Assembly (NCBI GenBank): GCA_021325475.1 | Contig: JAJPHA010000045.1 | Coordinates: 1-53,667, forward strand | DNA from: Rhodanobacteraceae bacterium | GTDB taxonomy: Bacteria; Pseudomonadota; Gammaproteobacteria; Xanthomonadales; Rhodanobacteraceae | Direction of reading: 5' to 3' | DNA: 53,667 nucleotides | Shown here: positions 14,468-53,667 of the stretch, one piece after another | Layout: each line of letters opens with the position of its first letter | How positions within the stretch are numbered: position 1 is the stretch's first letter | Translations under genes and position numbers: made by a program | The notes under the pieces: model-generated | What the model was told of the DNA's origin: nothing | Database searches by the model: none | The model's input: the letters and a program-made list of their open reading frames with translations, nothing else

Positions 14468-16291
14468 ATGCGGCGCCGCAGTTTGCTTAAGGGGATGGCC
14501 GCGCTGCCGGCGCTGTCGCTGCTGCCGCGGCGGTTGCTCGCGCGCGGCGCGCCGGCACGCCGGCGCCGGGTGCGCCCGGGCGATCCCGATTGGCCGGACG
14601 CCGCGGAATGGCAGCGGCTGCGGCAGGCGGTGGGCGGCAACCTGTTTGCCGGTGAGGCGCTGTTCGCGGCCTGCGTCGCGGATGCGGCCGGCGCGGCTTG
14701 CGCGGCGGCGAAGGCGAACATCACCAATCCGTTCTATCTCGGCGACCAGCCCTGCGGCACCCAGGTTTCCGGTTGGCTCGACGCCTGGACGCCGGCGCCG
14801 AGCGCCTACGTGATCCGAGCCCGATCCGCCGCGGATGTCGCCGCCGGCGTCGATTTCGCGCGCGAACACGGCCTGCGGCTGGTGATCAAGGGGACCGGAC
14901 ACAGTTATCAGGGCACCTCCAACGCCGCCGATTCGCTCCTGATCTGGACCCGCGCGATGAATGCGATCACGCTGCACGAGGGCTTCGTCCCGCAGGGCTG
15001 CGCCGGCGACTTCGCGCCGGAGCCGGCGGTCAGCGCCGAAGCCGGAGCGTTGTGGATCGACCTGTACGACGCCGTGACGACACGCGCCGGTCGCTACGTG
15101 CAAGGCGGCGGTTGCGCGGACGTCGGCGTGGCGGGTCTGGTCCAGAGCGGCGGCTTCGGCAGTTTCTCCAAGGGCTTCGGCACCGCCGCGGCGAGTCTGC
15201 TGGAAGCCGAGCTGGTGACCGCGGACGGCGCCGTGCGGGTGGTCAACGCCAAGCGCGATCCCGATCTGTTCTGGGCGATCAAGGGTGGCGGCGGCGGCAG
15301 TTGGGGAGTGATCACCCGTGTCACGCTCCGCACCCATCCGCTGCCGGAGTACTTCGGCGGCGTCGGCGGCGCGATCCGGGCCCGGTCCGATGCCGCGTTC
15401 CGCGCGCTGGTCGCGCGCTTCGTGGCGTTCTACGCCGAGCGGCTGCACGACCCGCACTGGGGCGAACAGGTCGCGCTCGGTCCAGACAATACCTTGCGCC
15501 TCGGCATGGTCTGCCAGGGGCTCGACGCGGCGCAGGCCGAGCGGACCTGGCAGCCGTTCTTCGCCTGGGTGCAGGCCGCGCCGGCAGAATTCGACATCGT
15601 CGAGCCGCTCGGCACCGGCGTGCGCGAGGCGCGGCGCTGGTGGGCCGTGGCCGGCAACGAATTCATGATCCCCGATCCGCGTCCCGACGCGCCGAAGACG
15701 CACGGCTGGTGGCGCGGCGATCAGGAGCAGGTCGGCGCCTTTCTGCACGGCTTCGATTCGCTCTGGCTGCCGGCTGCGCTGTTGCGGCGTGCCGAGCAAC
15801 CGCGTCTCGTCGATGCCCTCATTGCCGCCAGCCGGCACCAGCGCGTGCAGTTGCACTTCAACAAGGGCCTGAGTGGCGCGCCGGCCGAGGTCGTCGCCGC
15901 CGCGCGCGCCACCGCGACGAATCCGGCGGTGTGCGAGGCCTTTGCTCTCGCCATCCTGGCCGATGGCGAAGGTCCGGCCTATCCCGGCTTGCCGCGGCCG
16001 GCGCCGGATCGGGAGCGGGCGCGGCGCAACGCGCGCGCCATCGACCGGGCCACGGCGGAATTGCGCAAGGTCGCCCCGGCCGGCGGGTCCTACGTCTCCG
16101 AAAGCAATTACTTCAATCCGTCCTGGCAACGCGCATTCTGGGGCGAACACTATCCGCGGCTGCGCCGGATCAAGGACCGCTACGACCCCGAAGGCCTGTT
16201 CTTCGTGCACCACGGCGTCGGCAGCGAAGACTGGAGCGCGGACGGCTTTGCGCGATTGTCGTCTCGGGAGGGTCGGATCCCATCCCCATAG
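14468..16291 (+). CDS. Tat-exported FAD-linked oxidase with BBE domain
   Basis: A 607-residue flavoprotein of the berberine-bridge/PCMH type. It starts with a twin-arginine signal, RRRSLLKGMAALPALSLL, so it should be exported folded. The FAD-binding PCMH domain follows: APSAYVIRARSAADV, then KGTGHSYQGTSN with the histidine that can bind FAD covalently, VQGGGCADVGVAGLVQSGGFGSFSKGFG, and the loop KGGGGGSWGVIT. The C-terminal BBE segment is YVSESNYFNPSWQRAFWGEHYPRL. The substrate is unknown. ATG 14468 has a strong ribosome site (GGAGGA, 14457-14462). The last residues (about REGRIPSP) and the stop are encoded by an intergenic repeat, so the original C-terminus was probably different. It sits between glnA and ntrBC. 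Confidence 0.85.
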   Translation: MRRRSLLKGMAALPALSLLPRRLLARGAPARRRRVRPGDPDWPDAAEWQRLRQAVGGNLFAGEALFAACVADAAGAACAAAKANITNPFYLGDQPCGTQVSGWLDAWTPAPSAYVIRARSAADVAAGVDFAREHGLRLVIKGTGHSYQGTSNAADSLLIWTRAMNAITLHEGFVPQGCAGDFAPEPAVSAEAGALWIDLYDAVTTRAGRYVQGGGCADVGVAGLVQSGGFGSFSKGFGTAAASLLEAELVTADGAVRVVNAKRDPDLFWAIKGGGGGSWGVITRVTLRTHPLPEYFGGVGGAIRARSDAAFRALVARFVAFYAERLHDPHWGEQVALGPDNTLRLGMVCQGLDAAQAERTWQPFFAWVQAAPAEFDIVEPLGTGVREARRWWAVAGNEFMIPDPRPDAPKTHGWWRGDQEQVGAFLHGFDSLWLPAALLRRAEQPRLVDALIAASRHQRVQLHFNKGLSGAPAEVVAAARATATNPAVCEAFALAILADGEGPAYPGLPRPAPDRERARRNARAIDRATAELRKVAPAGGSYVSESNYFNPSWQRAFWGEHYPRLRRIKDRYDPEGLFFVHHGVGSEDWSADGFARLSSREGRIPSP

Positions 16292-16377
16292 TGCCTGCCT
16301 TCGGCGGCGGAGCCGCACCCCCACAACCCCCAGCAAACCCTTGCGCAGCAAGGGTTTGATGGCCCCCTTGACTTAAG
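16266..16377 (+). repeat. Intergenic hairpin repeat, locus A, first unit
   Basis: Begins inside the 3' end of the flavin-oxidase gene. It holds the core CCACAACCCCC, then a perfect 10-bp stem CAAACCCTTG (16334-16343) / CAAGGGTTTG (16349-16358) with loop CGCAG. The following palindrome (CCCCCTTGACTTAAGG) is decayed. It is directly followed by a second, fuller unit. Confidence 0.85.
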
Positions 16378-16590
16378 GAAGGTCTGATCAAACCCCGATG
16401 TCGCTGGCTTCGGCCGCGGCACCGCACCTCCACAACCCCCATCAAACCCTTGCTGCGCAAAGGTTTGATCGCCCCCTTGACTCAAGGGGGCTGAAAGAAC
16501 CGACGCCGCATGGTCGGTTTGTTCAGAGATTCCTCAAGGGGGCTAAACGAGACAGAGCTGCGGGCTCACTTGTTCACGGGTTCTCTTGAT
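16378..16590 (+). repeat. Intergenic hairpin repeat, locus A, second unit with two tails
   Basis: The head starts GGAAGGTCTGATC. The hairpin is ATCAAACCCTTG (16441-16452) / CAAAGGTTTGAT (16458-16469), with one mismatch and loop CTGCG, followed by the 19-bp palindrome CCCCCTTGACTCAAGGGGG (16472-16490). Two tail units follow (about 16491-16541 and 16542-16590), the second diverged. With the first unit, this accounts for most of the 351-bp gap between the flavin oxidase and ntrB; no gene is seen in the gap. Confidence 0.85.
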
Positions 16591-16625
16591 CGCGCCCAAC
16601 GACGCCGCAGACGCCGGCGCGCATA

Positions 16626-16642
16626 TGCACTAAACTGGTGCA
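16626..16642 (+). promoter_or_regulatory. NtrC-type operator abutting the ntrB start codon
   Basis: TGCACTAAACTGGTGCA, very close to the enteric NtrC consensus TGCACYAAAATGGTGCA. Its last base is immediately followed by the ATG at 16643, so bound NtrC would cover the normal ribosome-site position. It probably mediates autorepression, as at the glnL promoter of enterics. Confidence 0.82.
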
Positions 16643-17680
16643 ATGTCGGTAACGCCTGCTCTCATCGAGGCATCTTCGGCGGCCAACGCCGCGCTCGATC
16701 AGTTGACCACCGCCGTGGCGGTGTTCGATCGGCACGGGCGCTTCCTGCACGCCAATCCGGCGTTCGTCGAGCTGACCGGCGTGGTCCGCTGGCGGGGCTG
16801 CACGCTGGAGGCACTCGGCGAGACGACCGCGCAGGATCTGCGCGGCTGGTTCGAGCGCGTGCGCACGAGCAAGGCGGCGCTGACGCGGCGCGGCTACGAT
16901 TGGACGACGCGTGATCCGCCGCTGCGCGTCGATCTGACCGTCGCTCCGGCGACCGGGGGCGGTGTCGTGCTGGAACTGCATCCGCAGACGCCGAGCGAGG
17001 CCGAGGCCTCGCCGCGCCTCTCGCAAACCCTGCGCGGACTGGCGCATGAGGTGAAGAATCCGCTCGCCGGACTGCGCGGCGCGGCGCAGTTGCTGCGGCG
17101 CCGTCTGGCCGATGCCGACCTGCAGCATCTCGCCGATCTGGTCATCGCCGAGGCGGACCGGCTCGGCGGCCTCGCCGATCGTCTGCTGCGCCCCGGCGGC
17201 GAGCCGCACTGGCGCACGGTGAATCTGCACGAAGTCGCCGAGCGCGCGCGCGCCCTGCTCGCCGCCGAGGTGGCGCCGGAGGTCAAGCTCGCGCGCGACT
17301 ACGATCCCAGCCTGCCGCCGCTGCGCGGCGATGCCGACCGTCTGCTGCAACTGCTGCTCAATCTGCTGCGCAACGCGGCGCAGGCTTCGGCGACGACGAT
17401 CCAGGTGCGCACCCGTGCCGAGCGCGGCCTCGTGCTCGGCGGCCAGGCGGTGCGCCTGGCCGCGCGGCTGGACGTGATCGACGACGGCGTCGGCGTGCCC
17501 GAGGCGCTGCGCGATACGCTGTTCCTGCCGCTGGTCTCCGGTCGCGCCGGCGGCTCGGGTCTCGGCCTCGCGCTGGCGCAGGAGATCGCGCACGAACACG
17601 GCGGCCAGATCGGCTTCAGCAGCCGGCCGGGGCGCACCGTGTTCAGCGTCGTGCTGCCCCTGGAGAACGGTCGTGGCTGA
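16643..17680 (+). CDS. glnL: Nitrogen regulation sensor histidine kinase NtrB
   Basis: A 345-residue cytoplasmic kinase/phosphatase that controls NtrC, normally in response to PII. It has an N-terminal PAS domain (AVFDRHGRFLHANPAFVELTG), the H-box LAHEVKNPLAGLRGAAQLL (phospho-histidine near residue 136), an N-box (LLNLLRNAAQAS), DDGVGVPEALRDTLFLPLVSG, and the G-box SGLGLALAQEIAHEHGG. It has no membrane helix, as expected for NtrB. The ATG has no clear ribosome site, since the preceding 17 bp are an NtrC-type operator. It overlaps ntrC by 8 bp. It is separated from glnA by a flavin-oxidase gene and a repeat cluster. Confidence 0.93.
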   Translation: MSVTPALIEASSAANAALDQLTTAVAVFDRHGRFLHANPAFVELTGVVRWRGCTLEALGETTAQDLRGWFERVRTSKAALTRRGYDWTTRDPPLRVDLTVAPATGGGVVLELHPQTPSEAEASPRLSQTLRGLAHEVKNPLAGLRGAAQLLRRRLADADLQHLADLVIAEADRLGGLADRLLRPGGEPHWRTVNLHEVAERARALLAAEVAPEVKLARDYDPSLPPLRGDADRLLQLLLNLLRNAAQASATTIQVRTRAERGLVLGGQAVRLAARLDVIDDGVGVPEALRDTLFLPLVSGRAGGSGLGLALAQEIAHEHGGQIGFSSRPGRTVFSVVLPLENGRG

Positions 17681-19073
17681 AGTGTGGATCGCCGACGACG
17701 ACCACGCCATCCGCTTCGTGCTCGGCGAGGCGCTGCGCGAGGCCGGCACCGCGGTGCGCGAATTCGCCGATGCCGAAAGCCTGCTCGCCGGCCTCGATCG
17801 CGGCGCGCCGGACGTGGTCATCACCGACGTGCGCATGCCCGGCGACGGCGGCCTCACGCTGCTCGGCAAACTCAAGGCGCGCGGCATCGCCGCGCCGGTG
17901 ATCGTGATGAGCGCGTTCACCGACGTCGCCGCCACCGCCGCCGCGTACCGCAACGGCGCGTTCGATTACCAGCCGAAACCGTTCGACCTCGACCAGATGC
18001 TGGCCTCCGTCGAGCGTGCGCTCGCCGAGACACGGCCGCCGCCGCCGCTGCCGGCGGCCGAACCCGAATCGGAACTGATCGGCCAGTCGCCGACGATGCG
18101 CGAGCTGTTCCGCAGCATCGGTCGAGTCGCCGCGACCGATCTCAACGTCCTCGTCACCGGCGCCACCGGCACCGGCAAGGAATTGGTCGCGCGCGCCCTG
18201 CACCGGCACAGCGCACGCGCCGCGCGAGCGTTCGTGGCGATGAACACCGCGGCGATTCCGGCGGAGCTGCTGGAATCGGAACTGTTCGGCCACGAGGCCG
18301 GCGCCTTCACCGGCGCGGTCAAGCGCCACGCCGGACGTTTCGAACAGGCGCAGGGCGGAACCCTGTTCCTGGACGAGATCGGCGACATGCCGCTGCCGCT
18401 GCAGACGCGCCTGTTGCGGGTGCTCGCCGAGGGCGAGTTCTACCGCGTCGGCGGCCGCGAGCTGATCCGCGCCGACGTGCGCGTGATCGCGGCCACGCAC
18501 CAGGACCTCGATGCCAAGGTCGCGCGCGGCGAGTTCCGCGCGGATCTGCTGCACCGCCTCGACGTGGTGCGGCTGCACCTGCCGCCGCTGGCGGAACGGC
18601 GCGAGGACATTCCGCTGCTCGCCGCGCGTTTTCTCGCCCGCGCCGCCGCGAGCATGCGGCTCGAACCGAAGCGGTTTTCGCCGGCGGCGCTCGGCGCGCT
18701 GGCCGAGATGCCGTGGCCGGGCAACGTGCGCCAGCTCGAGAATCTCTGCCGGCGCCTCGCGGTGATGGCGCCGGGACGCGAGATCCGCGTGCAGGACCTG
18801 CCGCCGCTCGAACGCGAGCGCGACGCCGACGCGGATCCCTGGCACGAGGCGCTGGCGCGCACGGTGCGCGCGCGCCTGGCCGGCGGCGCGGAGAATCTCT
18901 ACGCGGAGTTGCGCGCGGAGTTCGATCGCGCGGTGCTCGGCGCGAGCCTGGCCGAGAACGACCAGCACCGTGGCCGTGCCGCGCGCCAGCTCGGCCTCGG
19001 CCGCAACACGCTCACGCGCAAGCTCGGTCCGGCACGCCGGCGCACGCGCCGACCCGAGGGAGGAGCCAAATGA
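17673..19073 (+). CDS. glnG: Nitrogen regulation response regulator NtrC
   Basis: A 466-residue sigma-54 activator. The receiver domain (residues 1-120) has IADDDHAI, the phospho-acceptor aspartate in VVITDVRMPGDGG near residue 53, and the lysine in PKPFD. The AAA+ domain has Walker A GATGTGKELVARALH (Ala where many have Glu or Ser), the sigma-54 contact loop GAFTGA, Walker B GGTLFLDEIGDMP, and WPGNVRQLEN. The C-terminus is a Fis-type helix-turn-helix (RGRAARQLGLGRNTLTRKL). Start GTG 17673 lies inside ntrB with GGAGAAC upstream. It is the likely activator of the glnA sigma-54 promoter and the likely repressor acting at the ntrB operator. Confidence 0.95.
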   Translation: MAEVWIADDDHAIRFVLGEALREAGTAVREFADAESLLAGLDRGAPDVVITDVRMPGDGGLTLLGKLKARGIAAPVIVMSAFTDVAATAAAYRNGAFDYQPKPFDLDQMLASVERALAETRPPPPLPAAEPESELIGQSPTMRELFRSIGRVAATDLNVLVTGATGTGKELVARALHRHSARAARAFVAMNTAAIPAELLESELFGHEAGAFTGAVKRHAGRFEQAQGGTLFLDEIGDMPLPLQTRLLRVLAEGEFYRVGGRELIRADVRVIAATHQDLDAKVARGEFRADLLHRLDVVRLHLPPLAERREDIPLLAARFLARAAASMRLEPKRFSPAALGALAEMPWPGNVRQLENLCRRLAVMAPGREIRVQDLPPLERERDADADPWHEALARTVRARLAGGAENLYAELRAEFDRAVLGASLAENDQHRGRAARQLGLGRNTLTRKLGPARRRTRRPEGGAK

Positions 19074-19552
19074 CGGCAACCGGCGCGCTGCGCGTGCGCG
19101 AAGCCGGCATCGGCGATGTCGCCGCGCTGGTCGCGTTCAACGCGGCGATGGCGCTCGAAACCGAACACAAGGCGCTCGACCGCGAGGTGCTCGGCGCCGG
19201 CGTGCGCGCGGTGCTGGCTGAACCGCGGCGCGGGTTCTATCTGGTGGCCGAGGACGGCGCGAACGTGATCGGCTGTCTGATGGTGACCTACGAGTGGAGC
19301 GACTGGCGCAACGGCGATTGGTGGTGGCTGCAGAGCGTCTATGTCGCGCCCGCGCACCGGCGCCGCGGCGTGTTCCGCGCGCTGTACGCGGAAGTCGAGC
19401 GGCGCGCGTGCGCCACGCCGGAGGTGATCGGCATACGCCTCTATGTCGAGCGCGACAACGAACGGGCGCAACGCACCTACGCCGCGCTCGGTCTGCGCGA
19501 GATGCGCTACCGCATGTACGCCAAGCCGCTCAAGCCGGGGGTGCCGGCGTGA
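19070..19552 (+). CDS. GNAT-family N-acetyltransferase
   Basis: A 160-residue acetyltransferase with the GNAT acetyl-CoA loop WWWLQSVYVAPAHRRRGVFRALY near residues 84-106, including the R-R-x-G-x pyrophosphate-binding pattern. It ends with a typical motif-B segment (IRLYVERDNERAQRTYAALGLRE). The substrate is unknown. Its ATG overlaps the ntrC stop by 4 bp (ATGA at 19070), with GGGAGGAG upstream, so it is co-expressed with ntrBC. A role in nitrogen control would be speculation. Confidence 0.85.
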   Translation: MTATGALRVREAGIGDVAALVAFNAAMALETEHKALDREVLGAGVRAVLAEPRRGFYLVAEDGANVIGCLMVTYEWSDWRNGDWWWLQSVYVAPAHRRRGVFRALYAEVERRACATPEVIGIRLYVERDNERAQRTYAALGLREMRYRMYAKPLKPGVPA

Positions 19553-19604
19553 AGCCGTCGGCCTGGCCGCACCGATCGCGTCGCACAGCAAGCGCAGGGC
19601 GGCC

Positions 19605-20525: not shown

Positions 20526-20609
20526 CCGATCGGCCGTTCGCGTTACCGCTTTTCAGATGTGTACCGCTGGGGTGGTGCCAGAGGGCGCTGCTCTGCAGCG
20601 AAATGGGTT

Positions 20610-20720
20610 CTATGGGCTGTCGTCGATGACCGCATGCGGATACGGCGCGGCGGCCGCGAACTCCCCGCGCCGTTCCTCGGCCAGGCGGGCGAGTCTGTCC
20701 AGATCGAAAACGTACGGCAT
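20610..20720 (-). pseudogene. Truncated start of a 2-oxoglutarate/Fe(II) oxygenase-like gene
   Basis: From ATG 20720 the minus strand encodes 36 residues, starting MPYVFDLDRLARLAEERRG and continuing to APYPHAVIDDSP and a TAG. The PYPHAVIDD block resembles the usual opening of 2OG-Fe(II) oxygenases (P-[FY]-PHxVIDdFLP). The stop falls exactly where FLP would be expected, and nothing downstream (20526-20609) restores the iron-binding motifs. It reads as a decayed gene remnant in the 268-bp gap between the acyltransferase and the thiolase. The rest of that gap shows no other feature except a candidate thiolase promoter. Confidence 0.5.
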
Positions 20721-20725
20721 ACAAT
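20696..20725 (+). promoter_or_regulatory. Candidate promoter of the thiolase gene
   Basis: TGTCCA (20696-20701), an 18-bp spacer and TACAAT (20720-20725) followed by GCGC, about 70 bp upstream of the thiolase GTG. The -10 is good but the -35 is weak. Confidence 0.4.
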
Positions 20726-20793
20726 GCGCATCAGCCGGCGGGGTGCGTAGGATACCAATCCCGCCGGCCCACCCGATTGCGAAGGATCTTGCC

Positions 20794-22071: not shown

Positions 22072-22079
22072 TCGCATCC

Positions 22080-24423: not shown

Positions 24424-24529
24424 GGTGCCATCCGTACCGCAGGTGGGGAGGTGCGCAGCCTAGCCAGCCACGGCGGGCGCGTCAATTCGGCGCGTCGCCG
24501 GGGCGGGACGCCTGCCGCCGGAGGCGCGA

Positions 24530-26934: not shown

Positions 26935-26944
26935 CAGCGCACGG

Positions 26945-40439: not shown

Positions 40440-40446
40440 TGGCGGG

Positions 40447-42901: not shown

Positions 42902-42930
42902 CGCGATCGGCTCGCCTTCGGGACGCGCAC

Positions 42931-45321
42931 ATGAACAAGATCGGCCACAAGGAGACCGCCCTGCAACGCGCCATGGCCGAGGCCGCGGCCGATGGTCGTC
43001 GCCTGCGCCTGGGTGTGGGCGCCGTGCTGTTCCTGTTCGCCTGCCTGCTGCTCGTCGGCGGCGCGTTCTGCCTGTGGCAGAGCTGGCTCATGTATCGCGA
43101 GATCCGCGGTGGGCTGCAGAGCGAACAGGTCGTGCAGTGGGAAGTCCAGGCGCTCAATCAATTCGTCGCCGAGACCCGGCAGCGGGTGATCGAGGTGCTC
43201 GGCCGCGAGGAGATCACCGCCGCGCTCGCGCAGGACACCGACGAGGGACGCGCCGCCGCCGCGCAGGTAGTCAAGCAGGCGCTGCCGGATCTCTTGCGGA
43301 TCGATTTCTATCGCGCCGATCTCGGCGACGTGCTGGGCAGCGATTTCTCCCGGTTCGGCTACGCCAAGGCGGCGATGCTGGTGCAGGCGCATCAGTACCA
43401 GCGCGGCGCGCCGTTGCAGTCGCGTCTGGACGAAAACCATCAGCGCGTACTGGCGTTGGCGCTGCCGGTGTGGCGCGCCAAGGAGATCGTCGGTTTCGCC
43501 TACCTCGAGCTGCCGTTCGAGCCGCTGCTCGCGGTGTTCCGTTCGGCGCGGTTGAGCGATGCCCGCGTGGATCTGCGCCAGGGCGAGGGCCGCGGCGACG
43601 TGGTGCTGGACAGCATCGGCGACGCCTTCACCCGCAATTCGCTGAACGAGCGCGGCCTCGCCGTCGCCAACAGTCTGTTCCGCGTCGGCAGCGCGCCGCG
43701 GGAATTCTTCATCGTGCTGCCGGACGATCCGTGGCTCGCATTGCCGCTCGCGGCGCTGCTGCTGGCGGGCTCGGCGCTGCTGTTCTACGCGCGCCGCGTC
43801 GGCTTCGACGCCCTGCGCGATCGTCTGCGGCGGGTCAGGCCCGAGGCCGCGGCGACGGAAGCCACGCTGGCCGAAACCGTGGTGACGCCGAAACCGGCCG
43901 CACCGCCCAAGCCGAAACCGGCGCCGCCGGCGGCGGCGGAGGTGCCGGTCGAGCGCAGCATCTTCCGCGCCTACGACATCCGCGGCGTGCTCGGCAAGAC
44001 GCTCACCGCCGGCGTGGCGCGCCAGATCGGCCGTGCGATCGGCAGCGAGGCGCGCGAACGCGGCCTGAAGGAGATCGTCGTCGGTCGCGACGGCCGGCTG
44101 TCCGGCCCCGAACTCGCCGCGGCCCTGATCGAGGGCTTGCGCAGCACCGGCTGCGACGTGATCGACATCGGCGCCGCGCCCACGCCGGTGTTGTATTTCG
44201 CCACCTATCACCTCAACGTCGGTTCCGGCGTGATGGTGACCGGCAGCCACAACCCGCCGGACTACAACGGCTTCAAGATCGTGCTCGGCGGCGAGACCCT
44301 CGCGGAAAGCGCGATCCAGGGCCTGTTCGCGCGCATCAGCGAAAGTCGCTACGTCAGCGGCAGCGGCGGCTTGCAGACCATGGACGTCAGCCGCGACTAC
44401 ATCGAACGCATCACCGGCGACGTGATGATCGAGCACAAGCTCAAGGCCGTGGTCGATTGCGGCAACGGCATCGCCGGGGCCGTGGCGCCGGCCGTGCTGG
44501 AGGGCATCGGCTGCGAGGTGCTGCCGCTGTACTGCGAGGTCGACGGCAATTTCCCGAACCACCACCCGGACCCGTCGGACCCGCACAACCTGCACGATCT
44601 GATCCTGTCGGTGAAGCAGATGAACGCCGACATCGGCCTCGCCTTCGACGGCGACGGCGATCGTCTCGGCGTGGTCACGGCGAGCGGCGAGATGATCTTT
44701 CCCGATCGTCTGCTGATGCTGTACGCGCGCGACGTGCTCACGCGCAATCCGGGCGCGACGATCCTCTACGACGTCAAGTGCACCGGCAAGCTGCAACCCT
44801 TGATCCTGCAATCCGGCGGCAGCCCGATCATGTGGAAGACCGGACACTCGCTGATCAAGGCGAAGATGCGCGAGACCGAGGCGGAACTGGCCGGCGAGAT
44901 GAGCGGGCACTTCTTCTTCCGCGAACGCTGGTACGGCTTCGACGACGGCATCTATGCCGCCGCGCGGCTGATGGAGATCCTGGCCGCGGACCCCGAAGGC
45001 CGCAATCCGCAGGAAATCTTCGACAGCCTGCCGAAGGGCGTCAGCACGCCGGAATTGAAGATCGCCATGGCCGAAGGCGAGCACTACCGCTTCATCGAAC
45101 GGTTCAAGGAAAAGGCGAGCTTCGAGGGCGCGCGCGTGACCACGATCGACGGCGTGCGCGCCGACTGGCCGGACGGCTTCGGCCTGGTGCGCGCGTCCAA
45201 CACCACGCCGGTGCTCGTGTTGCGGTTCGATGCCAACGACGAGGCCGCGCTCGCGCGCATCCAGAGCGCCTTCCGCGCGCAGTTGCTCGCGCTCGAGCCG
45301 AAGCTGGCCTTGCCGTTCTAG
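42931..45321 (+). CDS. algC: Membrane-anchored phosphomannomutase/phosphoglucomutase
   Basis: A 796-residue fusion. Residues 1-300 form a membrane sensor-like module: a helix at about 30-53, an extracytoplasmic domain, a second helix near 270-288, then a Pro/Lys/Ala linker. Residues from about 350 on are a complete alpha-D-phosphohexomutase: FRAYDIRGVLG, the phosphoserine loop VTGSHNPPDYNG, the metal-binding FDGDGDRLGVV, the sugar-binding GEMSGHFFF, and the phosphate-binding RASNTTPVLVLRF. It interconverts the 1- and 6-phosphates of mannose or glucose for LPS and exopolysaccharide sugar nucleotides. Plain AlgC is about 460 residues. Similar long forms occur in Xanthomonadales. What the N-terminal module senses is unknown. 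Confidence 0.9.
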   Translation: MNKIGHKETALQRAMAEAAADGRRLRLGVGAVLFLFACLLLVGGAFCLWQSWLMYREIRGGLQSEQVVQWEVQALNQFVAETRQRVIEVLGREEITAALAQDTDEGRAAAAQVVKQALPDLLRIDFYRADLGDVLGSDFSRFGYAKAAMLVQAHQYQRGAPLQSRLDENHQRVLALALPVWRAKEIVGFAYLELPFEPLLAVFRSARLSDARVDLRQGEGRGDVVLDSIGDAFTRNSLNERGLAVANSLFRVGSAPREFFIVLPDDPWLALPLAALLLAGSALLFYARRVGFDALRDRLRRVRPEAAATEATLAETVVTPKPAAPPKPKPAPPAAAEVPVERSIFRAYDIRGVLGKTLTAGVARQIGRAIGSEARERGLKEIVVGRDGRLSGPELAAALIEGLRSTGCDVIDIGAAPTPVLYFATYHLNVGSGVMVTGSHNPPDYNGFKIVLGGETLAESAIQGLFARISESRYVSGSGGLQTMDVSRDYIERITGDVMIEHKLKAVVDCGNGIAGAVAPAVLEGIGCEVLPLYCEVDGNFPNHHPDPSDPHNLHDLILSVKQMNADIGLAFDGDGDRLGVVTASGEMIFPDRLLMLYARDVLTRNPGATILYDVKCTGKLQPLILQSGGSPIMWKTGHSLIKAKMRETEAELAGEMSGHFFFRERWYGFDDGIYAAARLMEILAADPEGRNPQEIFDSLPKGVSTPELKIAMAEGEHYRFIERFKEKASFEGARVTTIDGVRADWPDGFGLVRASNTTPVLVLRFDANDEAALARIQSAFRAQLLALEPKLALPF

Positions 45322-45480
45322 GGAAGGTCGGAATACGTCCGCGCGTTCCCGTCTTCGGTTGTGGCGCCGCACCTCCACAACCCCCATCAAACCCTTGCTG
45401 CGCAAGGGTTTGATCGCCCCCTTGACTCAAGGGGGCTCAAACAGCCAGAGCGGCATGGTCCGCTTGTTCAACGGTTCCTG
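45322..45480 (+). repeat. Intergenic hairpin repeat, locus B
   Basis: Begins at the algC stop and ends about 20 bp before the convergent DUF4124 stop. A perfect 12-bp stem, ATCAAACCCTTG (45386-45397) / CAAGGGTTTGAT (45403-45414), has loop CTGCG. It is followed by the perfect 19-bp palindrome CCCCCTTGACTCAAGGGGG (45417-45435) and one tail unit (45436-45480). Its position suggests a bidirectional terminator. Confidence 0.88.
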
Positions 45481-45501
45481 GGCGAACCAGGCAGCCGCGG
45501 T

Positions 45502-46137
45502 TCAGTGCTCGGCGCGGCTTTTCGCCTGCACCTCGCGGTAGTGCGCGAGCTGGCTCTCGAACGATTTGGTCCGCTCGGCCTTTTCCGACTGTTTCGCGGC
45601 GATGTAGGCCTTCTGCTGCTCGATGTTGCGGCGCAGATCGTCGATCTGCTTCTTCAGTGTTTCCGGCACCGGCTTGCCGGCGCGATCGAGGTCGGCCGCA
45701 TGCGAGAGCATGTCGGTCAGACTCTTTTCCTGGCTCTGCAGGCTGAGCTCGGTGGCGTGGATCGTCTGGTCGATCATGTCGAGCTGCGCCTGCTGGGCGT
45801 TGGCGAACTCCTGCTCGGTCGGATACGCCGCGAGCATCTGCTGGTCGGCCTTGGCCTGCTCCTCGGCCGCGTGCTTGCGGGCGGCGGCTTCCGCGGCGGC
45901 GGCCTGGTCGGCTTTCAGTTCCTCGGGCGTCTTGGCGCGCTCGACGTGCTTGACGACGAGACCGTGCTCGTTGACGACGTCGTAGCCGTATTGCAGCGCC
46001 TCGACCGGCAGGGCGTCGTCGAAATGGAGATTGCCCTGGGCATCGCGCCATTTGTAGCGATTGTGGCCGCCTTCCGCGGCGACGGCGGTCAGGACGAACG
46101 CGAACGCCGCCGCGGCGACGAATTGGACAGGACGCAT
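45502..46137 (-). CDS. DUF4124-domain periplasmic protein with coiled coil
   Basis: A 211-residue exported protein. A signal peptide (FVAAAAFAFVLTAVAAEG) precedes a DUF4124 segment, NRYKWRDAQGNLHFDDALPVEALQYGYDVVNEHG. Then comes a long charged coiled coil (about residues 65-200) rich in Lys, Glu and Gln (ELKADQAAAAEAAARKHAAEEQAKADQQM and RRNIEQQKAYIAAKQSEKAERTKSF). DUF4124 proteins are common, often cell-envelope associated, and functionally undefined. ATG 46137 starts the signal peptide; the upstream in-frame sequence is read from a repeat and is not coding. Repeats flank it on both sides. Confidence 0.8.
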   Translation of the reverse strand: MRPVQFVAAAAFAFVLTAVAAEGGHNRYKWRDAQGNLHFDDALPVEALQYGYDVVNEHGLVVKHVERAKTPEELKADQAAAAEAAARKHAAEEQAKADQQMLAAYPTEQEFANAQQAQLDMIDQTIHATELSLQSQEKSLTDMLSHAADLDRAGKPVPETLKKQIDDLRRNIEQQKAYIAAKQSEKAERTKSFESQLAHYREVQAKSRAEH

Positions 46138-46149
46138 CGGCTTCACCTC

Positions 46150-46421
46150 CACTTTCAAGAACGGTCTGATCGAATCGCCGCGTCCCTGTCCTCGGCTGTG
46201 GCGCCGCACCTCCACAACCCCCATCAAACCCTTGCGCGGCAAGGGTTTGATCGCCCCCTTAACTTAAGGCTTAAAGAGCCGAGGCCACATCCTCCATTTT
46301 TTCAAAGATTCCTTAAGGGGGCTCAAGGAGCCGAGGCTAGATCCTCCGTTTGTTCAGAGATTCCTTAAAGGGGCTCAACGAGCCGAAGCGGCGTGTTCCA
46401 CTTGCTCAGAGGTTCCCTGAG
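46150..46421 (+). repeat. Intergenic hairpin repeat, locus C, with three tandem tails
   Basis: Head from about 46150; perfect 12-bp stem ATCAAACCCTTG (46223-46234) / CAAGGGTTTGAT (46240-46251), loop CGCGG; decayed palindrome (CCCCCTTAACTTAAGG). Three tail units of about 51 bp follow (46268-46317, 46318-46368, 46369-46421), each with a AGCCGA block and a TTTGTTCAGAGATTCCTTAA-like block. It fills the 295-bp gap between pyrE and the DUF4124 gene. Confidence 0.88.
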
Positions 46422-46432
46422 TATACCGGCGT

Positions 46433-47077
46433 TCACGCCGCGCCGTACGCGGCCCGGTAGGCGCGCAGGCGCTCGCGGTGGGCGGCGAGCGCGGGCTCGT
46501 CGGCGGCCAGGGCGAGCAGCTCGTCCAGCCGCGCGATCGCCACCACGGGGATGCCGAATTCGGCGGTGATTTCCTGTGCCGCCGAGAGCGCGCCCTGGCC
46601 GCGCTCCTGCCGATCGAGCGCGATCAGCACGCCGGCGGGGACGGCGCCGTGGGCGCGGAGCAGCGCGATCGATTCGCGCGTGGCGGTGCCGGCGCTGATC
46701 ACATCGTCCACGATCAACACGCGGCCGGCGAGCGGCGCGCCGATCAGCACGCCGCCCTCGCCGTGATCCTTCGCCTCCTTGCGGTTGAAGGCGACCGGCA
46801 CGTCGCGGCCGTGCTGCTCGGCCAGCGCGACCGCGGTGACGGTGGCGAGCGCGATGCCCTTGTAGGCCGGCCCGAACAGCATGTCGAAGGCGATGCCGGA
46901 ATCCTGCGCGCGCGCGGCGTACGCGCGGCCGAGTGCGGCCAGCGCGGCGCCGGAGTCGAGCCGGCCGGCATTGAAGAAATACGGACTGATCCGCCCGGAC
47001 TTGAGGGTGAATTCGCCGAAGCGCAGGGCGTTGCGGCGCAGGGCGAGCTCGAGGAATTCGCGTTGGTAGGCTTTCAC
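46433..47077 (-). CDS. pyrE: Orotate phosphoribosyltransferase
   Basis: Joins orotate and PRPP to give orotidine monophosphate in pyrimidine synthesis. The 214 residues match the bacterial enzyme. Blocks are [79 protein letters not shown] (flexible catalytic loop), and the PRPP-binding [21 protein letters not shown] at 47075-47077. It is divergent from the exonuclease III gene with a 139-bp gap, the same neighbourhood as pyrE-crc in pseudomonads. Confidence 0.96.
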
Positions 47078-47216
47078 GAGGGGTGGGCGCTAAGAGCGGA
47101 GACGTAGCCTGCCGCATCGCCGCCGCGGAAGGCAACTCTGGAAGCGCGAGCGGGTTTCCACGGCCGTTGATGAGTCGAGTAAGCTGACGACCCTCGGCCC
47201 TCAGCCCTCGGCCCCA

Positions 47217-48014: not shown

Positions 48015-49297
48015 GCGAGGCGGCATCGCCCGCGCCGCGGGCTTCGGTCTGGCGCGCGTTCGCGCAGCCGGCCGCGGGCACCATGCTGTGTTTCGGATTT
48101 TCTTCCGGCTTGCCGTTCCTGCTCGTCGCCGGCACGCTCGCGTATTGGCTGAAGCAGGAAGGCGTCGAGCTCGCCCGCATCACCATGATCGCGAGCGCGG
48201 GGCTCGCCTATGCGCTCAAGTTCCTGTGGGCGCCGCTGCTCGATCGCTGGCATCTGCCCGGCTTTGCCCGGCTCGGCCGTCGGCGCGGCTGGCTGCTGTT
48301 CGCGCAGCTCGGCGTGGTCGCGGGTCTGCTGGCCATGGCCGCGCTCACGCCCGCGCACCGCGCCGCCTTCGTCGGCGCCACGCTCGCGGTCGCCTTGTTC
48401 GGCGCCACCCAGGACATCGCGGTCGACGCCTATCGCATCGAGATCGCGCCGGTGAGCGCGCAGGGCGCGCTGGTGGCAGTCTATTCGCTGGGCTATCGCC
48501 TCGGTCTGCTGCTGGCGGGCGCGGCCGCGCCGATCCTCGCCGATCACCTGCCGTGGCGGATCGTCTACGCCGGCCTGGCGTTGGCGATGGCGCTGCCGAT
48601 CTCGGCCAATCTGTTCGCGCGCGAACCCGCGGCGGCGCCGGAACCGCCGCGGTCGTGGCGCGAGGCGATGCGCCTCGGCGTGATCGAACCGTTCGCCGAT
48701 TTCTTCCGCCGTCTGGGTTGGCCGCTCGCCGGCATCACCCTGGCCTTCATCCTGCTGTTCAAGATTCCCGAACAGGCCACGGTCGGCGGCATCATGAGTC
48801 CGTTCTATCGCGACATGGGCTTCAGCCAGACCGAAATCGGCGCGATCACCAAGATCTACGGCGTCTGGATCGGCATCGTCGGCGTGTTTCTCGGCGGCGC
48901 CGCGGTGGCGCGGTTCGGCGTGTGGCGCACGCTCGGCGCGGCGATCGTGGTCTGCGGCAGCAGCAACCTCGCCTATCTGTGGTTGAGCGCCCATCACGGC
49001 AGCCTGCTGGTGCTGACCGCGGTGATTTCGTGCGAGAACCTGACCCTCGGATTCCTCGGCCCACCGACGGTGGCGTATCTGTCGTCGCTGGTCAGCCACC
49101 GCCATACCGCGACGCAGTATTCGCTGCTGTCCTCGCTGGTCAATCTGCCGGGCAAGCTGCTCGGCTTCTTCGCCGGCAGCATCGTCGCGGCGACCTCCTA
49201 CGACACCTATTTCGTGCTCACCGTGCTGGCGGTCGCGCCGGCGTGTGCACTGTGGGTCTGGCTGCAACGCCGTTTCGCGGCACGCCTGCCGGCGTGA
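48011..49297 (+). CDS. ampG: AmpG-family muropeptide permease (MFS)
   Basis: A 428-residue transporter with about 12 membrane helices, importing anhydro-muropeptides for cell-wall recycling. AmpG features are GFSSGLPFLLVAGTLAYWLKQEGV, LKFLWAPLLDRWHLPGFARLGRRRGWLL, FGATQDIAVDAYRIE with the acidic/charged signature, and KIPEQATVGGIMSPFYRDMGFSQTEIGAITK. It is translationally coupled to the nuclease gene (ATGA at 48011). The gene anmK, which acts on the imported anhydro-MurNAc, is just 0.35 kb downstream on the other strand, so the region is a recycling neighbourhood. Confidence 0.9.
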   Translation: MSEAASPAPRASVWRAFAQPAAGTMLCFGFSSGLPFLLVAGTLAYWLKQEGVELARITMIASAGLAYALKFLWAPLLDRWHLPGFARLGRRRGWLLFAQLGVVAGLLAMAALTPAHRAAFVGATLAVALFGATQDIAVDAYRIEIAPVSAQGALVAVYSLGYRLGLLLAGAAAPILADHLPWRIVYAGLALAMALPISANLFAREPAAAPEPPRSWREAMRLGVIEPFADFFRRLGWPLAGITLAFILLFKIPEQATVGGIMSPFYRDMGFSQTEIGAITKIYGVWIGIVGVFLGGAAVARFGVWRTLGAAIVVCGSSNLAYLWLSAHHGSLLVLTAVISCENLTLGFLGPPTVAYLSSLVSHRHTATQYSLLSSLVNLPGKLLGFFAGSIVAATSYDTYFVLTVLAVAPACALWVWLQRRFAARLPA

Positions 49298-49370
49298 CGC
49301 GGCGTGAAATCGGCGCGGATTGCTGCGAAAATGATCGCCGCAGGGGGATGACGGCGGAGCGGGTTCGGTC

Positions 49371-49667
49371 GTGCCGGACATACTCGTGCGCAACATCGAG
49401 GAACCAGTGGCCGAGCGCATCAAGGCGATCGCGCGCGAGCGCAACTGGTCGATCAATGAGGTCATCCTGCACCTGCTGCGTCACGGCGTGGGCCTGGGTG
49501 GCGAGGACGTGGCGCGCCGCGAGGTGCACGACGTCGCCGTGCTGAGCGGCACCTGGGATCCGCGCGAGACCGCCGCGTTCCGCACCGCGCTCGAGGCGTT
49601 CGAGCGCATGGACGGCACGCCGCTGTTCGTCGAAGCCGGCAAGCCGCGCGATCAGACGCCGAAATAG
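49371..49667 (+). CDS. Orphan ribbon-helix-helix (FitA/Arc-like) protein
   Basis: A 98-residue protein whose first 45 residues (MPDILVRNIEEPVAERIKAIARERNWSINEVILHLLRHG) form a ribbon-helix-helix DNA-binding fold like the FitA-type antitoxins. The C-terminal half (LSGTWDPRETAAFRTALEAFERMDGTPLF) is where a toxin-binding tail would be, but no toxin gene such as a PIN-domain vapC is next to it. It may act as a plain regulator or be a leftover antitoxin. Start GTG 49371 has GGCGGAG 12 bases upstream. Its 3' end overlaps the anmK 3' end by 16 bp. Confidence 0.72.
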   Translation: MPDILVRNIEEPVAERIKAIARERNWSINEVILHLLRHGVGLGGEDVARREVHDVAVLSGTWDPRETAAFRTALEAFERMDGTPLFVEAGKPRDQTPK

Positions 49668-50767
49668 ACGCCGCCGAGGACGCGCGGCGCGCGCGCGCCG
49701 GTGACCGCGGCAAGCGCGACCGGCGCGCGCCCGGCCAGCCGCTCGCGCGCCAGCCAGGCGAACAGCATCGCCTCGACGAAATCCGGATCGATGCCGCGCT
49801 CGGCGGTGCTGGCGACGGCGATCGGCGCGAGCGCCGCGGCGAGCGCGCGCATCAGCGCCGGATTGTGCACGCCGCCGCCGCAGACCCACACCTGTCTCGT
49901 CGTCGGTGCCTGTGCGCGCACGGCGGCGGCGACGCTTTGTGCCGTCAGCGCCACCAGGGTGGCCTGCACGTCGGCCGCAGCGAGGTTCAGGCCGTCGAGA
50001 TGACGCGCGAGCCACGCCAGATGGAACTGCTCGCGGCCGGTGCTCTTCGGCGGCGGCGCGTGGAAGAACGGTTCGCCGAGCAGCCGCGCCAGCAGCGCCT
50101 GATTCACGCTGCCGGCGGCGGCCAGCGCGCCGTCGCGATCGAACGGCTGGCCGAGCTGCCGCTCCGCCCAGGCGTCGAGCAGGCAATTGGCCGGACCGAC
50201 ATCGAAGCCGCGGACGGGTTCGCCGGCGGCGCCGGGCAGCAGCGTGAGATTGGCGATGCCGCCCAGGTTCAACACGGCGCAGGGCCGCGCGCCATCGGCG
50301 GCGAACATCGCCGCGTGGAACAACGGCGCCAGCGGCGCGCCTTCGCCGCCGGCGGCGACGTCGCGGCGGCGGAAATCGGCGACGGTGACGATGCCGGTGA
50401 TCTCGGCGATGCGGTTCGGGTCGCCGAGCTGGATCGTGAACGGCGGTTGCGCGCGCGGGCGATGGCGCACGGTCTGGCCGTGCGAGCCGAGCGCCGTCAC
50501 CGCGGACGCCGGAACCCCGGCACGGCGCAGCAGCGCATTTGCGGCATTTGCGAAGTTTTGCGCAATTTCCACATCGAGCGCGCCGAGCTCGTCGAGCGCG
50601 ATCCGCGCCTCGCCCTGTGCAAGCGCGAGGATGCGCCGGCGCAGCGGCTCCGGATACGGCGCGGTCAGCGCGGCGTGCAGGCGCGGCTGCGGATCGAAGC
50701 TCGCCAGGGCGACATCGATGCCGTCGGCGCTGGTGCCGGAGATCAGGCCGAGATACAGCGCGCTCAC
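49652..50767 (-). CDS. anmK: Anhydro-N-acetylmuramic acid kinase
   Basis: Converts anhydro-MurNAc from wall turnover to MurNAc-6-phosphate. The 371 residues match AnmK: YLGLISGTSADGIDVALASFD at the N-terminus (ATP loop; the common GTSMDG reads GTSADG here), LGSHGQTVRHRP, PFTIQLGDPNRIAEITGI, VADFRRRDVAAGGEGAPLAPLFH with the catalytic aspartate, VLNLGGIANLT, DVGPANCLLDAW and CGGGVHNPALM. It starts with GTG 50767. An AT-rich codon run is at 50526-50572. It is 7 bp downstream of the M23 peptidase gene on the same strand, and near ampG. Confidence 0.95.
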   Translation of the reverse strand: MSALYLGLISGTSADGIDVALASFDPQPRLHAALTAPYPEPLRRRILALAQGEARIALDELGALDVEIAQNFANAANALLRRAGVPASAVTALGSHGQTVRHRPRAQPPFTIQLGDPNRIAEITGIVTVADFRRRDVAAGGEGAPLAPLFHAAMFAADGARPCAVLNLGGIANLTLLPGAAGEPVRGFDVGPANCLLDAWAERQLGQPFDRDGALAAAGSVNQALLARLLGEPFFHAPPPKSTGREQFHLAWLARHLDGLNLAAADVQATLVALTAQSVAAAVRAQAPTTRQVWVCGGGVHNPALMRALAAALAPIAVASTAERGIDPDFVEAMLFAWLARERLAGRAPVALAAVTGARAPRVLGGVYFGV

Positions 50768-50774
50768 GCGACGG

Positions 50775-52211
50775 CTAGTTCGCGAGCGCGAGTTGCGTCG
50801 CTTCCAGCGCCTTCAATTTCGCCAGCAGCGGTGCGGTTTCGCGCTTGAAGCGCGCCAGTTCCGGCGCCGGCAGCGGATCGGGTTTCGGCAGGGTCACCGT
50901 CAGCGGGTTGCGGTGCGCGCCGTCGATGCGGAATTCGTAGTGCAGATGCGGCCCGGTGGCGAGTCCGGTCATGCCGACGTAGCCGATGGTCTGGCCCTGG
51001 GCGACGTGCTGGCCCACGTGCAGCGGAGCGATCCGCGACATGTGGCCGTACAGCGTGCTGTAGTGCCCGCCGTGCTGCAGGATCACGACGTTGCCGTAGC
51101 CGCCCTGCCAGCCGCGGAACGCCACCTTGCCGTCGCCGGCGGCGTGGATCGGCGTGCCGGTCGGCGCGGCGTAGTCCACGCCCTGGTGCGCGCGCATGGT
51201 GCCGAGGATCGGATGCAGGCGCGCGGCGGTGAAGTACGAGGTGATGCGCGAGAACTCGAGCGGCGTGCGCAGGAACGACTTGCGCAGCGGCCGGCCGTCG
51301 TCGCTGTAGAACATCGTCGCGCCGCTCGCATCGGTGTAGCGGAACGCGCTGAAGCGCTTGCCGCGATTGACGAACGTCGCCGCGACGATGTCGCCGTCGT
51401 GCAGGCGTTCGCCGTCGCAGTACACCATGTCGTAGATCACCGTGAAGCTGTCGCCCTGGCGCAGGTCCTGGGCGAAGTCGATGTCGTAGCCGAAGGCGTT
51501 GGCGAGCTTCAGCACCATGGCGTTGCTCAGGCCCGCCTGCGCGCCGGCGTCGAACAGCGAGCTCTCGATCACGCCGTGGGCGACATGGGTGCGGTGCTCG
51601 AGCGCGCGCGGGATGATCTCCTGGCGCAGGCCGGCGTCGTCGAAGCGCGCGATCACACGGGTGCGGTCGTCGCGATCAAACCGCAGCGCGGCGAGCCCGC
51701 CGTCGGCGCGGCGCAGGAAGGCGAATTCCTCGCCGGGCCGGATGTGGCGCAGCGCGCCCGCGTTGGCCTGGTCGTTGAGCAGGCGTTGCAGGTCGCCGGC
51801 GGCGAAGCCCTGTTCGCGGAAGATGTCGCCGAGCGTCTGGCCCGCGCGCACGCGCACGGTCTGCCAGTCGGCGTCGTCGTCGATCGGCGCCGGCGCGCGC
51901 GCCGGATCGGGCGCGGGCAGCGGCGGCAGCGCGAGCGGCACGACGGTGTACGCCGCGGCGTCGGGATCGAGCGTGGCATTGGCGAACCCCGGCAGCACCA
52001 CGCCGAGCACGGCGGTGCAGACCAAGGCCAGGCCGGCCAGCAGCCAGTGGCGGTGGCGCCAGGTCAGCGCGCCTGCGGCCGTGCCGCGGAGGGCGCCGGA
52101 AAAAGTATACAATTGCCATTTGCCGCGGCGCGCCCGCCACGCGCTGCCGGCGCGTCGGGCAAATTCTTGGATACAATGGGCAACGCGGCTGATCGGGGGC
52201 ACGGCGCGCAT
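50775..52211 (-). CDS. M23 peptidase with LysM/OapA-like domain
   Basis: A murein endopeptidase-like protein of about 478 residues. One N-terminal membrane helix (HWLLAGLALVCTAVLGVVLPG) is followed by an OapA/LysM-like segment (WQTVRVRAGQTLGDIFREQGFAAGDLQRLLND). The C-terminal M23 metallopeptidase has HQGVDYAAPTGTPIHAAGDGKV (zinc His and Asp), HYSTLYGHMS and GLATGPHLHYEF (HxH), the full LytM/MepM zinc set, so it is probably active on cross-links during growth. The start is uncertain: ATG 52211 is given, but TTG 52256 or an internal start near 52107 (just before LYTFSG) are possible. This position before anmK and tyrS is typical of xanthomonads. Confidence 0.85.
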   Translation of the reverse strand: MRAVPPISRVAHCIQEFARRAGSAWRARRGKWQLYTFSGALRGTAAGALTWRHRHWLLAGLALVCTAVLGVVLPGFANATLDPDAAAYTVVPLALPPLPAPDPARAPAPIDDDADWQTVRVRAGQTLGDIFREQGFAAGDLQRLLNDQANAGALRHIRPGEEFAFLRRADGGLAALRFDRDDRTRVIARFDDAGLRQEIIPRALEHRTHVAHGVIESSLFDAGAQAGLSNAMVLKLANAFGYDIDFAQDLRQGDSFTVIYDMVYCDGERLHDGDIVAATFVNRGKRFSAFRYTDASGATMFYSDDGRPLRKSFLRTPLEFSRITSYFTAARLHPILGTMRAHQGVDYAAPTGTPIHAAGDGKVAFRGWQGGYGNVVILQHGGHYSTLYGHMSRIAPLHVGQHVAQGQTIGYVGMTGLATGPHLHYEFRIDGAHRNPLTVTLPKPDPLPAPELARFKRETAPLLAKLKALEATQLALAN

Positions 52212-52392
52212 CCGGCAAACGCGCCGTAACTTAGCGACTGGCCGCAGGCGCGTCAACGCATGAGTTCACGCGGGTTTGCGCCCGGTCCGCGGTTAACGAA
52301 TAATTAACGACGAAGTCGGAAGCGTCCGATGGCGATGCGCGGGCTTCGTTGCCCTTGCCGAACACGATGCGTTCGGCCAGTCGAGGTGGTTC

Positions 52393-53604
52393 ATGAGCGA
52401 TGTGGCGGCAGCGCTCGACCGGATCGGTCGCGGCGCCGAGGAAATCATCAAGCGCGAAGAACTCGAAGCAAAGTTGCGGCTCGGTCGGCCGCTGCGGGTC
52501 AAGGCCGGCTTCGATCCGACCGCGCCGGATCTGCACCTCGGCCATACCGTGCTGCTCAACAAGATGCGCCAGTTCCAGGACCTCGGCCATCGCGTGATTT
52601 TCCTGATCGGCGACTTCACCGGCCTGATCGGCGATCCGAGCGGCAAGAACGCCACGCGCAAGCCGATGACACCCGACGAGGTGCAGGCGAACGCCAAGAC
52701 CTACGCCGATCAGGTGTTCAAGGTACTCGACCGCGAACGCACCGAGGTGCGCTTCAACTCCGAGTGGTTCGGACGCATGGACGCGGCCGGCATGATCCGG
52801 CTGGCGGCGAAGCACACGGTCGCGCGCATGCTCGAGCGCGACGATTTCGCCAAGCGGTATAAAAGTGGACAGCCGATCGCGATCCACGAATTCCTCTATC
52901 CGCTGGTGCAGGGCTACGACTCGGTCGCGCTCGAGGCCGACGTCGAGCTCGGCGGCACCGACCAGAAGTTCAACCTGCTGGTCGGCCGCGCGCTGCAGGA
53001 GGACGCCGGCCAGCCGCCGCAGATCGTGCTGACCATGCCGCTGCTCGAAGGCACCGACGGCATCGCCAAGATGTCCAAGTCGCTCGGCAACTACATCGGC
53101 ATCAACGAGCCGCCGAACGAGATCTTCGGCAAGGTCATGCGCATCTCCGACGAGCTGATGTGGCGCTACTACGAATTACTCTCGTTCGCCAAATCGCTCG
53201 ACGACATCGCGCGCATGAAGCGGGCGGTCGCCGCGGGCGCGAATCCGCGCGACTGCAAGCTCGAGCTCGCCGCCGAGCTGACCGCGCGCTTCCATGGCCC
53301 AGGCGCTGCGGAAGCGGCGTTGCGCCACTGGCACGAAGTCGTGCAGGGCGGTGGCGTGCCGCAGGACGTGCCGTTGAAGAACATTCCGGTGGCGGCGGGC
53401 GGCATCCGCATCGGCGCGCTGCTCAAGGCCGCCGGACTCGCGCCGAGCACCTCCGAGGCGCTGCGCAAGCTCGCCGAGCGGGCGGTGCGCCTCGACGGCG
53501 CGGTGATCGAGGATCGCGAGCTGACGCTGCACGCCGGCGCCGAACACCTGTTGCAGCTCGGCAAGCGCGGCTATGCGCGGGTGCGGTTGGTGGGTGGAGG
53601 GTGA
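52393..53604 (+). CDS. tyrS: Tyrosyl-tRNA synthetase
   Basis: Charges tRNA-Tyr; 403 residues. Class I motifs are HLGH in [17 protein letters not shown] (near residue 48) and KMSKS in [14 protein letters not shown]. Other blocks are [44 protein letters not shown], and a C-terminal S4-type RNA-binding domain ([24 protein letters not shown]). The HLGH form and sequence fit the TyrRS type common in Xanthomonadales and Pseudomonas. In the 181-bp gap upstream are GTTAA/TTAAC arms (52292-52308) and an AT-rich stretch that may hold its promoter. A repeat unit begins at its 3' end. Confidence 0.96.
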
Positions 53605-53607
53605 GAG

Positions 53608-53667
53608 AGGGAACCTCTGAACAAACCGGCCGTGCGGCGTCGGTTCTTTCTGCCCCCTTGAGTCAAG
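53608..53667 (-). repeat. Intergenic hairpin repeat, locus D, inverted and cut by window end
   Basis: Immediately after the tyrS stop and in the opposite orientation to the other loci. Read on the minus strand, it has CTTGACTCAAGGGGGC (from 53667), then a tail unit with GAAAGAACCGACGCCGCA and TTTGTTCAGAGGTTCCC. It matches locus A (16478-16530) almost base for base; the head and hairpin lie beyond the window. Confidence 0.85.

Follow-up and report, generated by a model that had tools for sequence, protein, structure and literature searches.

What are the repeats, each built around hairpins, that recur between genes in the 53,667-nt contig JAJPHA010000045.1 of the Rhodanobacteraceae bacterium assembly GCA_021325475.1 (this whole stretch is the window hereafter)? 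An earlier note, made from the letters of the window, had grouped four loci, A to D, into one repeat family; all four are present, the family is real, and it is more numerous than that note had it. We consider it probable that the unit is a 157-bp non-autonomous element, a miniature inverted-repeat transposable element (MITE), moved by an IS5-type transposase and carrying a structured core. It has terminal inverted repeats (TIRs) and duplicated YTRR targets, its ends match those of IS5-family transposons, one copy in the window is inserted into another, and one genus holds filled and near-empty versions of a single site.

The source genome of the window (G000) is a 2.90-Mb draft in 138 contigs. 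A genome-wide search with the hairpin stem had been proposed, and a scan with ATCAAACCCTTG/CAAGGGTTTGAT, allowing up to three mismatches, gave 42 sites (25 exact, 7 with one mismatch, 8 with two, and 2 with three) compared with 0 for the reversed pattern used as a control. BLAST with a 161-nt repeat returned at least 79 matches in the same genome, self-complementary ones counted (40 of 93 candidates scored). Copies taken with their flanks read GGAAGGTCTGATCAAA ... TTTGTTCAGAGATTCC at their termini. Both ends were located in 38 copies; the target-duplication test covered the 21 of these with at most 4 edits at each end, the remaining 17 exceeding 4 edits at an end. The unit is exactly 157 bp long in 15 of these 21 and carries no transposase; its TIRs are imperfect. 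The 4-bp flanks, mostly YTRR on both sides, agree at 2.71 of 4 positions; permuting the right flanks lowers this to 1.70, none of 5000 permutations reaching the observed value, and no signal appears in registers of 2, 3, or 5 bp. A non-autonomous element had been listed among several candidate roles, and the TIRs, the 4-bp YTRR duplications, and a 157-bp length without transposase bear it out. A search of plasmid and phage collections gave no match to the 157-bp copy, and an origin from either was rejected.

The MITE end GGAAGGTCTGATCAAA resembles GGAARGTCTGAACAAG of autonomous IS5-family transposons in related genomes. Four copies of one PF05598 transposon were read in genome G323; three are about 1.17 kb long with ends GGAARGTCTGAACAAG, the duplications are exact (CTAG/CTAG for two copies, TTAA/TTAA for one), and only one end of the fourth was located. 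G329 and G037 each contain a single copy with similar ends and TTAG on both sides. The G323 protein matches NF033581 (IS5 family transposase) with E 1.3e-97, the G037 protein with 1.1e-105, and the end of Escherichia coli IS5A is GGAAGGTGCGAATAAG. IS5 itself prefers YTAR targets. Core copies and the IS5-type transposon coexist in G323, and in the family to which G000 belongs 49 of 117 genomes carry PF05598 genes, although several other PF05598 elements there have quite different ends. Because IS5-family transposons have its ends and show exact 4-bp duplications, the 157-bp unit reads as an IS5-type MITE.

An insertion of one copy into another can be read directly at locus A. The core, about 65 nt, consists of CCACAACCCC, a variable hairpin (hairpin 1), and the palindrome CCCCCTTGACTCAAGGGGG (hairpin 2), and the copies in the window are laid out as follows.

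16267..16585, plus strand: locus A, outer MITE copy A1, interrupted by A2, its left part ending at 16376 and its right part resuming at 16534
16377..16533, plus strand: locus A, inner complete 157-bp MITE copy A2, sitting in the hairpin-2 palindrome of A1
16430..16440, plus strand: conserved block CCACAACCCCC of A2
16441..16469, plus strand: hairpin 1 of A2, a 13-bp stem with one mismatch and the 3-nt loop TGC
16472..16490, plus strand: hairpin 2 palindrome CCCCCTTGACTCAAGGGGG of A2
45322..45478, plus strand: locus B, a complete 157-bp copy
45386..45414, plus strand: hairpin 1 of locus B
about 46159..46416, plus strand: locus C, a single head and core, then three tandem tails ending at about 46312, 46364, and 46416
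46223-46251: hairpin 1 of locus C, loop GCG
53610..53667, minus strand: locus D, right end of a copy in minus orientation, truncated where the contig stops

The flanks of A2 are TTAA (16373-16376) on the left and TCAA (16534-16537) on the right, and the left stretch of A1 (16267-16378) was matched in the repeat search with E 2.3e-23. The four loci described earlier thus stand, but their anatomy changes: A is two nested copies, B is 157 bp long, and C has three tails, a one-head layout that probably arose by nested insertion and then recombination. The remark that some copies are very similar also holds, A2 and locus D matching at 93% over 58 nt. The left flank of locus B, CTAG, contains the TAG stop of a phosphomannomutase-like gene (42931-45321), and locus D begins 5 bp past the stop of tyrS (52393-53604). 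As a separate observation, the left end of A1 (16267-16291) provides the final codons and stop of a FAD-binding/BBE gene (14495-16291). Elsewhere in G000, truncated copies (L035, L037, L038, L050, and L053) run into a second dispersed repeat with GCAGAGCTTCCGCTCGG or its complement, and an array at C14:18425-18808 (L125, L131) repeats the core in 111-bp steps with an unrelated stem, AGCGCGCGC..GCGCGCGCT. A tandem array in G323 (L416, C1:2064974-2065821) holds at least five core copies with a 149-bp period.

Genes were called with a home-made codon-usage caller (unpublished) and copy ends placed by the 157-bp model; the 42 copies behind the gene-end, loop, and identity counts are those with a recognisable core in fetched loci, a set that overlaps but differs from the 42 stem sites. 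A stop codon lies within -8 to +4 nt of 20 of the 42, and the gene sides facing a copy at up to 400 nt comprise 44 stops and 30 starts, both counts being taken without a random-position control. The claim that all copies sit at gene ends is partly right: 20 abut a stop codon, one of the 42 lies within a called gene, and a few extend over a gene end by as much as 19 nt. YTRR includes TAG, TAA, and TGA, so target choice can explain the stop-codon position.

Across genomes, the core is located between the operon genes rpsB-tsf, rpmB-rpmG, rimP-nusA, and sucC-sucD, as well as behind a COX1 gene. In genus g38, one genome has a 176-nt sucC-sucD spacer with the core, and six others have 21-24 nt. Among the 30 best-scoring junctions of this kind (119 genomes had a match), two hold the element, two hold other inserts (85 and 197 nt), and 26 have just 0-26 nt; universal retention at this site is rejected, as the element is absent from 28 of 30. 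Filled sucC-sucD junctions are seen in several genera (L119, L129, L138, L367, L372), always opposite to sucC-sucD; they differ in stems and carry a second variable hairpin upstream, and they may reflect an old insertion with turnover or repeated insertion. A replication-strand bias was likewise rejected by eye, with 7 lagging and 5 leading matches in G206 and 6 lagging and 9 leading in G323 (E<=0.01, antisense duplicates removed, an array counted as one, origin assumed near coordinate 1).

The core reaches well beyond this genome. With a pattern that leaves the letters of the hairpin unspecified, matches were obtained in 19 of the order's 299 genomes, from 13 of 85 genera and families f1, f2, f4, and f12 (control 0). 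A named collection yielded at least 103 stretches, with 80 loci among the matches listed; of these, the taxon-named ones are Lysobacterales (Tahibacter, Dokdonella, Dyella, Lysobacter, Luteimonas, Pseudoxanthomonas, Xanthomonas, Thermomonas, and unnamed members), four loci among the matches listed come from one Salinisphaerales metagenome-assembled genome (MAG), and other records are labelled just Proteobacteria or Gammaproteobacteria. Identical stretches suggest that the order of the window is itself Lysobacterales. A 23-nt exact pattern of this lineage's own stem had 0 matches in that collection. When 150 genomes of the order were scanned with a covariance model, 29 had the core at E<=0.01 (35 candidates scored per genome), with at least 35 matches each in G000 and G069 and 18 in G028. 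The outer parts in G069 are unlike those of G000, and 11 of the 20 copies read there are flanked by CTAG and CTAG. Two neighbouring observations belong here. The 19 covariance-model matches in genome G087 look like a related but separate repeat (L320-L331), built as AAATCCCCC-hairpin-GCCCCCTTTGCAAAAGGGGG and containing TTGGCGCCAA, which may be a sister family or superfamily. The Salinisphaerales loci (L170, L175, L181, L184) are short cores right after terminator-like T-runs; three of them have no real hairpin 1, and two are arranged in tandem.

The earlier proposal that the stem is held while the loop varies (CTGCG, CGCAG, CGCGG) was correct on both counts. Hairpin-1 stems vary between lineages and pairing is retained: among 108 distinct spacers from exact-pattern matches, 93 fold at least as well as 95% of mononucleotide shuffles, and the best stems have 1034 Watson-Crick pairs among 1086, at a mean arm identity of 0.375. 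The 32/33-nt class has 37 sequences, of which 27 were aligned for covariation after near-identical G000 rows had been left out (a broader alignment of 50 of 71 sequences was not used for counts). In this alignment, 95.6% of cells pair, and the double-change cells number 83 compared with 27.7 after shuffling (0 of 500 as high), which supports constraint on the folded stem with compensatory changes; one-sided cells number 2 of 567, and the paired changes are almost without G-U intermediates.

The loops in the 42 G000 copies are TGC (21), GCA (7), ACA (3), TGT (1), GCG (3), CGC (1), and others (6). GCA is the reverse complement of TGC, as CGCAG is of CTGCG, so the loop has been inverted and is present in both orientations. 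Going from TGC to GCA by point mutation takes three substitutions, for which 0.04 cases in 42 are expected at 0.3 changes per site, and on a tree built without hairpin 1 the loop-orientation label needs 7 changes (28 labelled rows). No hairpin-2 inversion was seen among 33 distinct, de-duplicated cores, whose centre is ACT in 26, AGT in 0, and other triplets in 7. Template switching is known to leave both loop inversion and simultaneous paired change as its marks (PMC8794818, PMC8604942). The two-way loop and the near-lack of G-U intermediates would accordingly be marks of template switching on folded DNA.

We propose the following account. An IS5-type transposase would move the 157-bp unit into YTRR targets, stop codons included, and an insertion at a gene end would do little harm because the 4-bp duplication would keep TAG, TAA, or TGA intact. 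In the cell, hairpin 1 may fold at the DNA level, and during replication a template switch from one arm to the other would copy changes across and invert the loop. A putative protein would recognise the fixed block together with the asymmetric hairpin 2 as DNA, whichever way the element is oriented, and might serve mobility or the host chromosome.

Several results weigh against this account. PF05598 has no match in the 138-contig G000 draft, no matching partner transposase was found in that draft, and its sole PF01609 transposon (L031), tried as a partner, has different ends by inspection. Exact 4/4 duplications occur in 6 of the 21 copies. In families other than that of the window, different outer parts surround the core, and IS5-type ends often cannot be recognised in them; IS5-type transposition therefore accounts for only part of the core family. 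Cross-lineage sequences were retrieved with exact patterns, and thus conservation of the fixed blocks is overstated. Further pair types do not exceed shuffles (43 of 500 as high; 27 sequences). The loop tree is weakly resolved, its well-supported branches (4 of 39 inner branches) forcing just 3 loop changes. Within G000 the letters of the stem agree at 90-100%, an identity that template switching alone does not explain.

Of the competing explanations, the one that survives best, though we hold it to be less probable than its opposite, is that the element is purely a selfish parasite whose core is conserved through gene conversion or through several source copies. Its multicopy, lineage-specific bursts in G000, G069, G028, and G323 are as expected for a parasite, but the core is common to several families and is kept in copies with decayed outer parts. 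Column identity in the 42 G000 copies is mostly 90-100% in the core (lowest 80%), 57-64% in the loop, and mostly 45-90% in the outer parts. In ten disjoint nearest-neighbour pairs, the differences are 42/644 (6.5%) in the core, 155/697 (22%) in the outer parts, and 10/29 in the loop. The core is the less divergent in 10 of 10 pairs, about one third as much, a comparison that is biased because copies were found through the core. Counter to that bias, the mismatch classes drop from 25 exact to 2 with three, whereas a broad distribution truncated by the cut-off would rise.

The same contrast in all ten pairs would suit a chromosomal protein site, for nucleoid organisation, topology, or recombination, exapted from a MITE with its core kept for the host, a reading that we regard as rather unlikely. 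It would also fit the hairpin-2 centre, which is ACT in those 26 cores and never the inverse AGT, as if one particular strand of hairpin 2 were read even while hairpin 1 flips. On the other side, 121 of the 150 genomes of the order gave no match at the sensitivity of the covariance model. A broader version, to which we give still less credence, would make the core an old, order-wide folded-DNA device in which one block and one asymmetric hairpin stay fixed while the other hairpin runs free, its letters renewed by replication template switching, carried by different mobile ends, settled in core operons, and having its lineage-specific stem read by a fast-evolving protein.

It is improbable that the core is a structured RNA element that stabilises mRNA 3' ends or is a site of processing between the genes of an operon, with hairpin 1 under RNA selection. 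The operon positions given above, a strong RNA fold (z -3.1 to -6.1), and the compensatory changes would suit it, as would the same orientation being commoner in a partly overlapping other-species set (21 same, 13 opposite) and the upstream gene being co-oriented at all four Salinisphaerales loci. The block CCACAACCCC is asymmetric, so a function in mRNA should show orientation, but copies between co-directional genes are about equal in G000 (11 same and 11 opposite, where the "same" row L033 is a spurious antisense match) and in the named collection (26 and 29). Stem mismatches are A-C in 23 cases and G-T in 12, though the stem score tolerated G-T; as A-C is not rarer, the pattern of a plus-strand RNA is absent, and a minus-strand RNA would see it reversed, at most a weak lean. 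Together with the scarcity of G-U intermediates and the 28 sucC-sucD junctions without the element, this leaves RNA selection on the stem, as earlier suggested, not favoured. The suggested terminator role fares no better: no T-run follows the hairpin by inspection, the only kind of check made on locus A, and a scan of 44800-46700 found nothing in loci B or C, its lone site (46552-46568) lying outside the elements. No sigma-70 promoter was found in 44800-46700. Rfam had 0 matches in the window at gathering scores and, up to E 1, 8 matches across 8 loci, none at the element, so a known RNA family is rejected. The near-equal orientations, the asymmetry of CCACAACCCC, and the lack of a terminator-like site in B and C lead us to favour a role at the DNA level over RNA.

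It is very unlikely that these are REP/BIME-like palindromes mobilised by a RAYT (HUH) transposase reading folded single-stranded DNA, a link raised by the earlier note: the copies are intergenic, palindromic, lineage-specific in stem, tandem, and clustered, but neither a GTAG nor a CGTC tag was seen by inspection, the unit is 157 bp and not 20-40, and it has 4-bp duplications and IS5-type ends (RAYT genes were not searched for).

The 157-bp MITE bears on wider matters. It has long been asked how both arms of a paired stem can change with no broken state in between, and template switching is a proposed answer (PMC8794818); since one genome has dozens of hairpin copies with the loop both ways, it should be possible to measure rates of flipping and arm-copying directly. 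The family also warns that covariation alone is no proof of RNA function, suggests how a target containing a stop codon lets a transposon settle in operons with little harm, and offers a test case for host function.

Neither the TTGACTCAA nor the TTAACTTAA form of the palindrome, searched on both strands, occurs in the open-licence papers covered. No such paper on Xanthomonadaceae MITEs was found, and no description was recognised in the titles and abstract openings among those listed on IS5 MITEs and on REP/RAYT or palindromic repeats in Xanthomonas. Four of the systems below are compared through excerpts of the papers cited. CIR repeats of Caulobacter and relatives (PMC2229807) have two hairpin arms with a linker and GANTC at one hairpin loop, where most copies inspected here have GACTC (the search pattern itself required TTRACTYAA); CIR belongs to another bacterial group, TTAACTTAA copies here are without GANTC, and the likeness is one of description only. 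REP super-families, tagged GTAG or CGTC on a 20-40 bp palindrome (PMC3733652), share intergenic palindromes, changing stems, and clusters with the family here, whose unit is without tag, larger, and provided with IS5-type ends. The template-switch hairpins of Monttinen and Loytynoja (PMC8794818) show paired stem changes and loop inversion, as here; their cases lie in RNA genes, whereas these are dozens of copies of a mobile hairpin in one genome. IS5-family transposons (G323, GGAARGTCTGAACAAG; E. coli IS5A, GGAAGGTGCGAATAAG) share TIRs and 4-bp YTAR-type duplications with the MITE, which differs in being 157 bp long, lacking a transposase, having an internal core, and using the looser target YTRR. 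The bacterial MITEs Correia/NEMIS, RUP, and QMITE (PMC2229807, PMC10969869) are, like it, about 100-200 bp long and mostly intergenic, with TIRs, duplications, and stable folds; the family described here is set apart by a core of sequence plus structure that is common to several families of one order while the ends around it change.

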